From Leptolyngbyaceae cyanobacterium JSC-12 (lineage in GTDB: Bacteria; Cyanobacteriota; Cyanobacteriia; Leptolyngbyales; Leptolyngbyaceae), in NCBI GenBank assembly GCA_000309945.1, contig CM001633.1:3560199-3624198 (forward strand): 64,000 nucleotides of DNA, written 5' to 3'. Below the pieces are notes generated by a model. The model was not told the origin of the DNA and searched no databases. It was given only the letters and a program-made list of their open reading frames with translations. Below are positions 5,406 through 40,702 of this stretch, in pieces (position 1 is the stretch's first letter; each line of letters starts with the position of its first letter). Made by a program: the position numbers and the translations under genes.

Positions 5406-6689
5406 GTGACTCAGACTAACTTAGACTTCCTTGCTCAGACAGACCCAGCGATCGCCGAAATTATTAGCCAGGAACTACAACGACAGCGAGATCACCTGGA
5501 ACTGATTGCAAGTGAAAACTTCACATCACCTGCTGTCCTTGCTGCTCAAGGGTCTGTCCTCACTAATAAATATGCCGAAGGATTACCTGGAAAGCGCTAC
5601 TATGGCGGCTGTGAAGCGGTTGATCGAGCCGAGCAATTGGCGATCGAACGAGCCAAAGAACTGTTTGGAGCCGCTCATGCTAATGTTCAACCTCACTCTG
5701 GTGCCCAAGCCAATTTTGCTGTGTTTTTGAGCTTGCTAGAACCGGGTGACACCATTATGGGCATGGATTTGTCGCATGGTGGACATCTGACTCACGGTTC
5801 TCCAGTCAATGTTTCCGGAAAGTGGTTCAAAGTGCAGCACTATGGAGTTAGCTGTGAAACTGAGCAACTTGACTATGACATGATTCGTGATCTGGCGTTG
5901 CAGCATCGTCCCAAGTTGATTATTTGCGGCTATTCCGCCTATCCTCGCATCATCCAGTTCGACAAGTTCCGGGCGATCGCAGACGAAGTTGGAGCCTATC
6001 TCCTGGCAGACATTGCCCACATTGCTGGCCTTGTAGCCACAGGGCACCACCCTAATCCCATTCCTGATTGTGATGTCGTCACTACTACAACCCACAAAAC
6101 CCTGCGCGGTCCTCGTGGGGGCTTGATCCTGACACGCGATCCAGAACTCGGCAAAAAGCTAGACAAATCGGTATTTCCTGGTTCTCAAGGCGGGCCGTTG
6201 GAGCACGTTATCGCCGCCAAAGCAGTTGCCTTCGGAGAAGCTCTGAAACCTGCGTTCAAAGCCTATTCAGGACGTGTGATTGAAAATGCTCAGGCTTTGG
6301 CAAGTCAACTACAAGCGCGTGGCTTCAAAATTGTCTCTGGTGGCACGGATAACCACTTGATGCTGGTTGATCTGCGATCAATAGGGATGACTGGAAAAGT
6401 CGCGGATCAACTGGTGAGTGCAGTCAATATTACTGCAAACAAAAACACCATCCCTTTTGATCCCGAATCTCCCTTTGTCACCAGTGGTTTGCGACTCGGC
6501 TCTCCCGCCATGACTACTCGTGGTTTAGGAGTTAATGAGTTTACTGAAATTGGCAACATCATCGCTGATCGCCTGCTTCACCCAGATGATGAAGCGATCG
6601 CCCAAGCCTGTCGTCATCGAGTTGCGACATTGTGCAGCCAATTTCCGCTGTATTCCCATCTGCAAATTCCTGTACCTGCATTTGCATAA
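5406..6689 (+). CDS. glyA: Serine hydroxymethyltransferase (GlyA)
   Basis: GlyA interconverts serine and glycine with tetrahydrofolate, feeding one-carbon units to purine and methionine synthesis and serving photorespiratory metabolism in cyanobacteria. The protein is 427 residues, the normal bacterial length. Conserved features include [19 protein letters not shown] at the N-terminus, [13 protein letters not shown], and the PLP-lysine motif [15 protein letters not shown] near residue 228. The start is GTG at 5406; there is no better in-frame ATG. A strong terminator follows at 6727. Confidence 0.97.
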
Positions 6690-37112: not shown

Positions 37113-37262
37113 GGGAGCATGTCAGTTTTGCAAGTCTCTGCATTTGCCCTCATCCCCCAACCCCTGCTCCCAAGTTTGGGAGCAGGGGAGTCGAAGCTTC
37201 AAGTCCCTCTCCCAAGCTTGGGAGAGGAATTTAGGGTGAGGGCGCAAAGGTGACATGCTCCC
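37113..37262. mobile_element. MITE-like nested palindrome, 150 bp
   Basis: The ends are a 12-bp terminal inverted repeat, GGGAGCATGTCA (37113-37124) and TGACATGCTCCC (37251-37262), extended imperfectly by TTTGC inside. A second inverted pair, GCCCTCA (37146-37152) and TGAGGGC (37237-37243), is nested within. Two hairpins sit in the middle: a 13-bp-arm palindrome at 37161-37188 (CCCCTGCTCCCAA arm) and a perfect 22-bp palindrome at 37206-37227. It has no coding capacity. No clear target-site duplication is seen, so mobility is inferred from structure only. Confidence 0.65.
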
Positions 37263-37307: not shown

Positions 37308-38426
37308 TTGTTGCAACACTTCCAGCCGATCGCTGCGATCGCCACGACTCTGATTGGTGCACATCATCTTCTACCCTTTATCCAGTCCCAATCGATAACG
37401 CTTTGGGTACCTCCATTGGTAACCAGTATTGCAGGTGCACAAACCTATTCAGGCTCGCTGAAAGAGCATATACAGACGTTGTGGGCATCTCATCGAAGTT
37501 TGGTATTTTGTTTAGCAACAGATGCCGTTGTGCGCTTAATTGCTCCTCTCTTGCCCGATAAGGCAACTGATCCAGCCGTAGTAGTTGTGGATGAAACAGG
37601 ACAATTTGTCATTCCGGTGTGTGGCGGGCATCAGAGGAGAGCCGATCAGCTGGCTCGCTTGATTGCGGTTTCGATTGAGGCAACTCCCGTGTTAAGGGGG
37701 GTAGCCAACCGAGCACAGCTACCTGGCATCGATGTGCTGGGAATTCCCTTTGGTTGGGTGAAGGGGGAAGGGAACTGGACAGGCGTGAGTGCGGCGATCT
37801 CCCGTGGAGAATTGGTGCAAGTGTCTCAGGAAGCAGGGTCAGATTTGTGGTGGAAGGGACTGCCACTGGAGCATCCATTCAGGATAGGGGAATCCCACGG
37901 AGCACAAGTCTGGATCGGACCAACTCGACAAACACCAGATGACAAAGTCCCAATGGTGCAATGGCATCCCCGTGTGCTCTGGGTAGGGGTTGGCTGTGAG
38001 CGAGGCGCCCCCAAAGTTGTAATTGAGCAGGCAGTACAGACAGTGTTTCGAGACTATCGTCTGGCAGAAGCTGCGATCGCGGGGATTGCTACCCTGGATC
38101 TCAAAGCAGATGAAGCGGGACTACTGGCATTCTGTCAGGAACGGCACCTGCCATTGCGCTGTTTCTCAGCCGCTGATTTGCGATCAGTCACTGTCCCCAA
38201 TCCTTCCCAAATAGTGGAAGCAAAAGTTGGAACGCCCAGTGTGGCAGAAGCCGCCGCCATTCTAGCCAGCCAATCCCCATCTCCCATCCCCCTCGCCCAC
38301 TCCCCACTCCTCAATGCCCCAATCTCTCCATTACGGGTACCTAAACAAATCTTCCGCCTACCTGATCAACCTGGTGCTGTCACGATCGCAGTTGCTCAAG
38401 CCGCACAAGAGTACACAGGGCATTAG
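37308..38426 (+). CDS. cbiG: Cobalamin biosynthesis CbiG domain (5' part of broken cbiG-cobJ fusion)
   Basis: This 372-residue product covers the CbiG domains, which open the lactone ring of cobalt-precorrin-5A in B12 synthesis. Seen are FCLATDAVVRLIAPLLPDKA, VVVVDETGQFVIPVCGGHQRR and, in the C-terminal CobE-like part, VLWVGVGCERGAPKVVIEQA. The start is a TTG; no better codon is apparent. The ORF stops at TAG (38424-38426), and the very next codons in the same frame read GNLWLVGTGPGQLNPM, the start of CobJ. This gene was therefore very likely a single CbiG-CobJ fusion, as I recall in other cyanobacteria. A C-rich repeat encodes the linker SPSPIPLAHSPLLNAP at about residues 325-340. Confidence 0.85.
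   Translation: MLQHFQPIAAIATTLIGAHHLLPFIQSQSITLWVPPLVTSIAGAQTYSGSLKEHIQTLWASHRSLVFCLATDAVVRLIAPLLPDKATDPAVVVVDETGQFVIPVCGGHQRRADQLARLIAVSIEATPVLRGVANRAQLPGIDVLGIPFGWVKGEGNWTGVSAAISRGELVQVSQEAGSDLWWKGLPLEHPFRIGESHGAQVWIGPTRQTPDDKVPMVQWHPRVLWVGVGCERGAPKVVIEQAVQTVFRDYRLAEAAIAGIATLDLKADEAGLLAFCQERHLPLRCFSAADLRSVTVPNPSQIVEAKVGTPSVAEAAAILASQSPSPIPLAHSPLLNAPISPLRVPKQIFRLPDQPGAVTIAVAQAAQEYTGH
38273..38330 (+). repeat. C-rich heptad repeat inside cbiG
   Basis: Successive units TCCCCAT CTCCCAT CCCCCTC GCCCACT CCCCACT keep a period of seven through the coding region. They are translated as a Pro/Ser-rich linker between the CbiG and CobJ parts. Confidence 0.7.
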
Positions 38427-38826
38427 GGAAACTTATGGTTGGTGGGAACAGGACCTGGACAGCTAAACCCGATGACAGCAGCGGTCAAGGCAGCGATCGT
38501 GCAGGCAGATGTAGTCATCGGCTATTCTCTCTACATTGAGTTGATTGCAGTCTTGCTACGTCCAGGACAGATTATGGAAACCCCGCCGATCCCGCAAGAG
38601 CAACAACAGGCAGAACGGGCGATCGCCCTGGCTGACTGGGGCTTATCAGTTACGGTTGTGTCATCCGGCGATTGCGGTATTTACGGCGCTTGCCGAGTTT
38701 GTCCACTATCCTATTGATAGGCTCACAACGGTTTTAATCGGCAACCAGAGTACCCGCATCTATGCTGATTGGATGATTACGCCTTGTGGATACCTGGGGT
38801 TCGATCGCCCTCAACCTTTAGATTAG
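38427..38826 (+). pseudogene. cobJ: cobJ (precorrin-3B C17-methyltransferase) remnant
   Basis: The first part, in frame with cbiG after its amber stop, reads LWLVGTGPGQLNPM through VVSSGDCGIYG, the N-terminal third of CobJ. After GIYG the frame runs into an early stop (38716-38718). In the +1-shifted frame the CobJ C-terminus appears instead: LAEFVHYPIDRLTTVLIGN, STRIYADWMITPCGYLGFDRP. About 110-120 residues between these parts are missing, judged against the family's roughly 250 residues. The junction lies in TTTACGGCGCTTGCC. The gene therefore carries a nonsense codon, an internal deletion and a frameshift. Start TTG 38439 would give only a 92-residue fragment. Confidence 0.88.
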
Positions 38827-38831
38827 CAACG

Positions 38832-39380
38832 ATGACTTTAAACCACTCTCCCAAACTAAATGGTTCGCTTCTACGGCAATGGCTGATGGCGCTAGTAGGG
38901 GCGATCGCTCTCCTACTTATCACACTCCCAGTTCAAGCAGTTCCCACTGGAGCCAAATTTTCCCAGCAATATGCCCCACCCCCTTCTTACAGCAATGCCG
39001 AACTAGCTGATCAAGACTTTTCCGGGCAGATTCTGCGCGTAGCAGAGTTCTCCAATGCCAATCTTAATCGGGTGAACTTTACCAACGCCGACCTTAGAGG
39101 AGCCGTGATGAGTGCCTCTACGATGGTAGATACCTCGTTGCATGGTGCTGACTTAACTCAAGCCATGCTGGATCAGGTCAAGATGATCCGAACAGATCTC
39201 AGCGATGCCATCCTGGCAAACACTATTTTGCTTAGAACCACCTTTGAAAACATCAACCTGGAAGGTGCAGATTTCACTGATGCCATTTTGGACGGTGCCC
39301 AGGTTAAAGCATTGTGCCAGTTTGCCAGCGGAGCGAATTCCAAAACTGGAGTTTCTACTCGCGATTCGTTGGGATGCTAA
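38832..39380 (+). CDS. Exported pentapeptide-repeat protein (likely thylakoid lumen)
   Basis: This 182-residue protein has a signal peptide (hydrophobic LMALVGAIALLLITLPVQA, cleavage after VQA). It is followed by pentapeptide repeats: AELADQDFSGQ, AEFSNANLNRVNFTNADLRG, ADLTQAMLDQVKMIRTDLSD, ANLEGAD-type units such as INLEGADFTDAILDGA. The C-terminal tail has two Cys, LCQFASG and DSLGC, that could form a disulfide. Proteins of this kind occur in the lumen of cyanobacteria and chloroplasts, function unclear. The ATG at 38832 is six bases after the cobJ remnant. Confidence 0.85.
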   Translation: MTLNHSPKLNGSLLRQWLMALVGAIALLLITLPVQAVPTGAKFSQQYAPPPSYSNAELADQDFSGQILRVAEFSNANLNRVNFTNADLRGAVMSASTMVDTSLHGADLTQAMLDQVKMIRTDLSDAILANTILLRTTFENINLEGADFTDAILDGAQVKALCQFASGANSKTGVSTRDSLGC

Positions 39381-39499: not shown

Positions 39500-40702
39500 A
39501 TGTTTAACTCGCCCGCAAATCCTCAACCCAACACACCACTTGCACCTCTAGCAACTCAACGCCGAGTCGTTGGAGTGATTGGAGGAGGTCAGCTTGCTTG
39601 GATGATGGCAGAGGCAGCGAAATCTTTAAAGATTGATTTGGTTGTACAAACGCCAAGCGATCGCGATCCGGCAGTAGCAATTGCCACTCAAACGATTCTG
39701 GCTCCTGTTGCCGATGCTCAGGCAACCGCCCGACTTGCTTCCCAATGTGATGTTATTACCTTTGAAAATGAATTTGTTGATCTGGAAGCCCTGCATCAAC
39801 TTGCTGACCAGGGTGTTTGTTTTCGTCCTAGTTTAGATGCATTAGACCCACTACTAGATAAGTTTCACCAGCGATCGTTTCTCAAGCAGCTTGGTCTCCC
39901 AACTCCGTCGTTTACCGCGGTAACTACCGATGACCTGAAAGCAACAACTCTCCATACGTTTCCGCTGGTGCTCAAAACTCGGCGACATGGGTATGACGGG
40001 CAAGGAACATTCATTGTGCAAAATACAGCAGAACTGGACGCCATTTTGCCGGGCTTGAACACGGTTCCGCTACTGCTAGAAGAATTTGTGCCATTTGAGC
40101 GAGAGTTGGCAGTAATGGCAGCCCGATCGCTGGCAGGGGAGGTGGTGATTTATCCAGTGGTAGAAACCGCACAGAAACAGCAAGTGTGTCGCTGGGTCAT
40201 CGCACCGGCAGAAGTTTCGGACTTGGTAGTAGACCAAGTGAAGGCTATCGCCGAAGCAATCCTCACTAACTTGCAAGTGGTCGGGATTTTTGGCATTGAA
40301 CTATTCCTGACGACGGAGGGCACTGTGTTAGTCAACGAGATTGCTCCCCGCACACACAATTCTGGACACTTTACTCTGGATGCTTGCAAAACTTCGCAGT
40401 TTGAACAGCAACTTCGAGCAGTTTGCGGCTTGCCACTGGGTAGCCCAGCCATGCTTGCAGATGGCGCAGTGATGGTGAATTTGCTAGGTTATGAAGACTC
40501 TCATAGCGACTATGCCGAAAAGCGTCAGCAATTAGCGGCTCTAAATAATGCCCATGTGTATTGGTATGGCAAAGCAGAATCTCATCCTGGACGAAAGTTG
40601 GGACACGTTACCATATTGCTAAACTATCAGCCAGGTGAAACTATCCGGCAACAAGCGATCGCACAACTTCAAACGATTGAATCGATCTGGTATTCCTCTT
40701 GA
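39500..40702 (+). CDS. purK: 5-(carboxyamino)imidazole ribonucleotide synthase (PurK)
   Basis: PurK carboxylates AIR to N5-CAIR using ATP and bicarbonate in purine synthesis. The protein is 400 residues, an ATP-grasp enzyme. Motifs include VVGVIGGGQLAWMMAEAAK, FENEFVDLEAL, KTRRHGYDGQGTFIV, LLLEEFVPFERELAVMAARS and the C-terminal VNEIAPRTHNSGHFTLDAC. A 25-residue N-terminal extension, NSPANPQPNTPLAPLATQRR, precedes the fold. It is not linked to purL or purF, which are 35 kb away in this window. Confidence 0.96.
   Translation: MFNSPANPQPNTPLAPLATQRRVVGVIGGGQLAWMMAEAAKSLKIDLVVQTPSDRDPAVAIATQTILAPVADAQATARLASQCDVITFENEFVDLEALHQLADQGVCFRPSLDALDPLLDKFHQRSFLKQLGLPTPSFTAVTTDDLKATTLHTFPLVLKTRRHGYDGQGTFIVQNTAELDAILPGLNTVPLLLEEFVPFERELAVMAARSLAGEVVIYPVVETAQKQQVCRWVIAPAEVSDLVVDQVKAIAEAILTNLQVVGIFGIELFLTTEGTVLVNEIAPRTHNSGHFTLDACKTSQFEQQLRAVCGLPLGSPAMLADGAVMVNLLGYEDSHSDYAEKRQQLAALNNAHVYWYGKAESHPGRKLGHVTILLNYQPGETIRQQAIAQLQTIESIWYSS

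Follow-up and report, generated by a model that had tools for sequence, protein, structure and literature searches.

A half-finished un-fusion of a cbiG-cobJ gene in a cyanobacterium that holds a second, CobG-type B12 module

Does a cbiG-cobJ fusion gene that is open in its first half and broken in its second mean that a cyanobacterium is losing B12 synthesis, or is the gene being taken apart for another reason? We addressed this question at a locus of Leptolyngbyaceae cyanobacterium JSC-12 (G000), within a window of 64,000 nucleotides, by which we mean the whole stretch of DNA that was analysed; the genome is a single contig of 5.53 Mb, rated 100% complete. We read the locus as a real and recent un-fusion of a B12 gene that is only half complete, and a second module of the CobG type in the same genome accounts for it. 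Among open-licence PMC papers, we found no report of the fission of a CbiG-CobJ fusion.

The broken gene and the intact CobJ elsewhere

On the forward strand of the window, cbiG forms an open frame of 372 aa (37308..38426) carrying the N, mid and C domains, with TTG as the first in-frame start and TAG at 38424-38426 as its end. Past the coding part (37308-38423) and this TAG, the same frame reads on as GNLWLVGTGPGQ, the CobJ start, just as a sequence-only reading of the locus had described. The 5' CobJ remnant, of the type defined below as A, stays in the cbiG frame for ~86 codons (38427..38684, forward strand) and matches positions 1-85 of the 239 in the model TIGR01466 (1.3e-20), and the 3' remnant, in another frame, runs up to the old stop (38686..38826, forward strand) and matches positions 201-238 (2.4e-7). 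No whole CobJ domain is recognised here, the piece in one frame reaching 73.9 bits and that in the other 30.6 bits, where the cut-off is 246.35. The CbiG protein passes the Pfam cut-offs (CbiG_N 100, CbiG_mid 34 and CbiG_C 119 bits) and lies below the NCBIfam equivalog cut-offs (best 146.4 versus 326); its predicted activity is that of a cobalt-precorrin-5A hydrolase. Downstream, on the same strand, follow a gene that by eye resembles pentapeptide-repeat genes (38832..39380), a conserved neighbour with 84% identity in G002, and a second conserved neighbour that we take to be purK (39500..40702). Comparison of three loci with the Rfam families gave no match.

The lesions were defined against L011, an intact fusion of the same genus on a contig of the MAG Leptolyngbyaceae cyanobacterium C42_A2020_001. 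The alignment contains a single gap of 365 bp (121 codons and 2 bases) at ~38685/38686, with alignable flanks (junction 38680..38692, forward strand), and this gap accounts for the missing CobJ residues. A length of 365 bp is no whole number of codons, so the deletion by itself explains the change of frame as well, and the lesions number two instead of three: of the stop, deletion and frameshift originally proposed, the former two stand and the last is no lesion of its own. The motif GDCGIYG, previously taken for an out-of-frame lesion, was ruled out, since L011 reads alike and the C hardly varies among 15 intact type A CobJ sequences, for which GDCG is normal. A microhomology deletion at the junction may have occurred and would be compatible with the sequence; L011 is too diverged to show which bases stood there before the deletion. 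The relic further differs at 5 of the 46 positions that are invariant in 24 intact type A CobJ sequences (Q>P, T>P, R>Q, M>R and R>C; Fisher p = 3e-5), compared to 0-2 differences when each intact sequence was left out in turn; together with the stop and the deletion, this excess bears out the description of a decaying cbiG-cobJ fusion. Pairwise dN/dS against L011 was 0.095 for the relic and 0.10 for CbiG with saturated synonymous sites, and, being alike in both, it was dropped as a means of dating the decay or of showing selection on CbiG; that it is still low places the decay as recent relative to the split from L011.

Upstream of cbiG, at 37145-37250 of the window, lies a strong branched palindrome with an RNA fold of -63.6 kcal/mol (z -5.74), whose core occurs once within the window. 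The corresponding region of G002 is shorter and aligns poorly at the palindrome, and a related palindrome pattern gave no match in 151 loci, a weak test in that the pattern requires more bases than are present in the window copy. The element looks like a small dispersed repeat.

The same reading had predicted that B12 synthesis should fail and had named an intact cobJ elsewhere as the finding that would make this copy redundant. The genome-wide search did find one: a full CobJ at G000:C1:3310489-3311232, ~290 kb from the window locus and distantly related to the window CobJ, matches positions 1-238 of the 239 in TIGR01466 at 314 bits (cut-off 246.35) with no internal stop. It forms the C-terminal part of a 505-aa CbiG_N-CobJ protein and is predicted to carry out C17 methylation with ring contraction. 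This protein closes a cassette in the order cobL, cobG, cobH, cobI, a gene that is presumably Uma2-like, and CbiG_N-CobJ. CobG itself (G000:C1:3305564-3306781) scores 328.6 bits against a cut-off of 234.8, which is loose in that nitrite-reductase-like genes also reach ~240, and the genome thus passes the CobG test for the aerobic pathway. With an intact CobJ in a cob cluster and CbiD also present, the predicted failure is not supported, and these genes do not lead us to predict a loss of B12 in this genome. Nor is the broken locus simply redundant, because its CbiG half holds the only CbiG_C in the genome.

Two side observations concern the cassette region: the Uma2-like gene (L010 8562-9299, G000:C1 ~3308561) has a homologue in the cassette stretch of 9 of 28 genomes with this kind of cassette (type B below), and downstream of the cassette cobJ (L010 12370-13711), two adjacent ORFs resemble transposase pieces by eye.

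To see what is kept of CbiG, G000 was compared at the positions invariant in 21 intact fusions. It departs from them at 4 of 17 in the N part (G72D, S103P, G111R and T130R), at none of 12 in mid and at 1 of 33 in C, the last being a gap at the joint with CobJ. When the 21 fusions were left out in turn, 13 of 370 N positions differed, giving a binomial p of 0.0025 for the N excess. The Pfam CbiG_N stretch ends one residue before T130; leaving out T130R gives an N count of 3/16 (p = 0.020), and N does not then differ significantly from the remainder of the gene (p = 0.10). Mid and C look conserved, without excess change, and for CbiG_N, which also occurs in the type B protein, the small counts only hint at drift. 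The ATG of the G002 gene is not conserved in the window cbiG; it was not counted as a lesion, since the intact fusions G015 and G020 also have no ATG near the conserved N-terminus.

Two module types and one chromosomal place

Type A was defined as a CbiG-CobJ fusion with no CobG match starting within the first 6 model positions, and such genomes show only nitrite/sulfite-reductase-like matches to the CobG model, starting at 12 or later; type B combines a CobG match from the first 6 model positions with CbiG_N-CobJ, usually alongside a separate CbiG_C gene. Among 58 relatives, G000 included, 25 were type A, 28 type B and 5 unclassed (G003, G011, G031, G034 and G043, with CobJ missing or partial). 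CobG is weaker in some type B genomes, lying in three pieces in G012 and under the cut-off in G016 and G025; G001 was classed A from a fusion broken off at a contig end, and G052, also A, is absent from the CobJ tree. CbiG_C was found in 24/25 type A genomes (not in G001, owing to the contig end) and 23/28 type B genomes, and CbiD in 55/58. A type A CobJ profile built from 9 sequences gave 254-513 bits on A rows and 215-243 bits on B rows. In a CobJ tree of 55 rows, one starred branch (99) splits A from B; the window relic groups with G001 and G002 (starred, 97), and the intact G000 copy falls inside B, nearest to G024. The genes cobG, cobH and cobI lie with the type B CobJ within one stretch in 22 of the 28 type B genomes. 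Among solved structures, type A CobJ is nearest to 2zvb, whose source organism we take to use the oxygen-independent route, and type B CobJ to 3nut, presumably from an organism of the oxygen-dependent route.

In a wider draw from the phylum, 181 of 386 genomes matched the type A CobJ profile at 1e-15; by score, 68 were classed B and 55 A, a further 57 were classed A as members of family f2 (with fused frames seen in the listed rows inspected, not genome by genome), and G196 scored too low to class. CobG, from model position 5 or earlier, was present in 64 of the 68 type B genomes (not in G103, G145, G278 and G282) and in 0/112 type A genomes among the matches listed (to ~2e-68; one second match of G351 is unlisted), and CbiG_C was present in 60/68 type B genomes. 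With 4/68 type B genomes lacking CobG and 8/68 lacking CbiG_C, type B does not strictly entail either. Of the 181 genomes, G000 alone showed two CobJ pieces, of both types, at 1e-15, a threshold at which shorter relics would be missed, and no genome with both CobJ types intact occurs among the relatives or in the phylum draw. G061, a candidate for a second double-module genome, was ruled out, its second match being another methylase. The two module states are nearly exclusive. Apart from this, several members of family f28 (e.g. G074, G084, G100 and G115) have two CbiG_C matches, the second of which may be part of a type B protein or a duplicate, and G196 (genus g78) has a CobJ match of only 1e-30 and no CbiG_C, its genus mates G192, G230 and G313 carrying full type A fusions; a loss of B12 synthesis in G196 is possible on this gene content.

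The neighbours of the locus connect the two types. In 8 of 26 type A loci (G002, G004, G013, G015, G017, G020, G026 and L012), the CbiG gene has the pentapeptide-repeat-like gene and purK as neighbours, and, besides G000, these two adjoin a stand-alone CbiG_C gene, with CobJ gone, in 10 of 22 type B genomes (G006, G008, G010, G014, G019, G022, G023, G028, G030 and G033). These shared neighbours indicate that in the ten type B genomes the stand-alone gene occupies the place of the fusion in others. In the remaining type A loci and in 12 of the 22 type B genomes, the two neighbours were not both found within the stretch examined, often 3 to 6 kb, and neither lies within 3.5 kb downstream of the fusion in same-genus G001. 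From the end of CbiG_C to the pentapeptide gene, the distance is 762-940 bp in seven type A loci and 1560 bp in L012, 412 bp in G000, -19 to 137 bp in the ten type B genomes (nearer copy in G006, G010 and G022), and 1800 bp in G024. The stand-alone genes cover mid and C of the fusion in 7 genomes and mainly C in 15. In the CbiG_C tree they are scattered among fusions, and starred branches force at least 3 changes, whereas an AU test omitting six rows (G012, G054, G035, G045, G001 and G040) did not reject a single origin (p = 0.149 with G000, 0.277 without). Independent origins of the stand-alone genes are therefore unproven, the starred branches favouring several changes and the AU test not rejecting one. 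For G000 itself, the relic shows the direction, from fusion to fission; in the other genomes the same direction is presumed.

A probable module replacement, its rivals and the origin of the cassette

Both modules, the lesions, the location shared with some relatives and the conservation of mid and C are apparent in the genomes compared, and on these grounds we consider it probable that an older ring-contraction module is giving way to one of the CobG type, that this genome shows the change halfway, and that CbiG is on its way to becoming a CobE-like protein. The genome would first have used a type A CbiG-CobJ fusion and would also have come to hold the type B cassette of cobL, cobG, cobH, cobI and CbiG_N-CobJ. 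With C17 methylation and ring contraction covered by the type B CobJ, the old CobJ half would have been freed from constraint, a stop codon would have severed it from CbiG and the 365-bp deletion would have taken out its middle. We propose that the CbiG half was retained for its C domain, of which the genome has no second copy, and that its N domain, duplicated in the type B protein, may have begun to drift. In the predicted end state, CobJ would have disappeared and a mid+C or C-only (CobE-like) gene would stand alone, as other type B cyanobacteria show at the same chromosomal spot. Within this scheme we infer the enzyme activities, the flux through the type B cassette, the sequence of events and the part played by the CbiG that remains.

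The whole cbiG-cobJ gene might instead be a dying pseudogene, with CbiG open only because the decay is recent. The changes at invariant CbiG_N positions, the missing ATG where G002 has one, the similar dN/dS of relic and CbiG at saturated synonymous sites, and the eight of 68 type B genomes that do without CbiG_C would all suit such a course, but changes in mid (0/12) and C (1/33) are not elevated, the only CbiG_C of the genome sits in the window, and this domain is kept in 60/68 type B genomes, which leaves general decay an unlikely account. It is very improbable that the fusion is in truth intact and appears broken through an error of assembly or sequencing: the sequence is known from the assembly alone, but the genome is a single contig rated 100% complete, the 365-bp gap is clean with alignable flanks, and the excess of changes at invariant positions extends independently across the relic.

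Within the preferred reading, in which one module replaces another, a separate matter is how the two came together. Rather than the type B cassette arriving by transfer, both modules may have been present in the family ancestor, each lineage later losing one, and we regard this as a serious possibility, nearly as probable as its opposite. In the type A genome G026, a type B CobJ survives as a broken C-terminal fragment (L071 ~5934-6227, G026:C1:5951927-5952211), 81% identical to the G000 type B CobJ over 86 residues, and no other cassette genes were found in the surrounding 12 kb; the case mirrors the window locus, the same redundancy having been resolved the other way. This decayed piece favours ancestral coexistence, as does the identity between G000 and G019, which is similar for type B CobJ (87.5%) and nirA (86.3%). 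Between G000 and G024, however, CobJ (89.5%) exceeds nirA (76.9%) and cbiD (62.4%), which suggests some transfer, and taken together the identities of CobJ, nirA and cbiD favour neither account over the other. Against coexistence, no surveyed genome has both CobJ intact, and the cassette was not found in G002 or in G001 (84% complete). Beside lysS, the cassette site in G000, G002 has no cassette genes in 18 kb, and as the neighbour order also differs there is no clean empty site.

The decay of one of two overlapping genes is ordinary. Module replacement is usually visible only as end points, and here a middle stage is seen, with relatives seemingly at later stages at the same spot; the locus offers an unusual view of a double gene coming apart as one form of a pathway is exchanged for another. 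It suggests a source of CobE-like proteins and leads to a prediction of the CbiG domains on which a CobG-type pathway continues to depend. It deserves to be pursued for the stages seen at one place, for modules that nearly exclude each other and for the connection with CobE.

Comparison with known systems

We know of no clear role for CobE-like proteins. The C-only protein of G032 has CobE (2w6k) as its best PDB match (5e-8), the mid+C protein of G019 matches 3by5 first and then CobE, and the window protein first matches the CbiG homologue 3eeq. Taking CobE as a stand-alone CbiG_C without N and mid, the window gene, with all three domains, falls outside, and by profile coverage the C-only genes of 15/28 type B relatives fall within; the C-only form is a sequence relative of CobE.

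The chemistry of the two routes differs around this step. In the available text of PMC7242693, the precorrin-4 made by CobG and CobJ bears an acetyl group, which is removed at the CobF step; on the other route, CbiG opens the delta-lactone formed by CbiH and sets acetaldehyde free, after which CbiD methylates C1. The CbiG step is described as cobalt-dependent in the accessible part of PMC8305020. CobF did not exceed the TIGR02434 cut-off in any of the 58 relatives, nor in any of 14 control genomes, a search without positive control, and G000 thus fails the CobF test of the aerobic pathway under the same model. With CobG, CbiD and CbiG_C present and CobF undetected, neither textbook route fits fully. 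Tentatively, as an idea we hold somewhat less likely than its contrary, type B genomes may use a hybrid B12 route, with ring contraction by CobG/CobJ, two-carbon removal by CbiG/CobE and methylation by CbiD, without CobF; CobE-like proteins would then have arisen by stepwise trimming of CbiG within the old fusion, and this genome would represent an early stage. In a review table of PMC5282855, E. coli produces hydrogenobyrinic acid with cobG in the absence of cobE and, in another entry, with cobZ plus cobE, so that, as far as this table goes, CobE is not strictly needed where CobF is present, which tempers the idea of an obligatory CbiG_C.

Among known systems, the window gene is closest to the type A cyanobacterial CbiG-CobJ fusion (e.g. 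L011/G002), associated with CbiH-type ring contraction: domains and their order are the same, the neighbours are those of G002, and the gene is a broken orthologue that differs by the stop between the halves and the 365-bp deletion in CobJ. CobE (2w6k) is resembled by the C-only protein of G032, which likewise stands alone and matches it best, unlike the window gene, which still has N and mid and is nearest to 3eeq. The type B cassette shares the order cobG-cobH-cobI-cobJ with the cobGHIJ operon of the aerobic pathway in Pseudomonas denitrificans, as given in the available text of PMC8123684. Its CobJ is nearest to 3nut among solved structures; in contrast to that operon, it carries a CbiG_N domain, and the 58 relatives have no CobF over the cut-off (in a search without positive control) and CbiD in 55.
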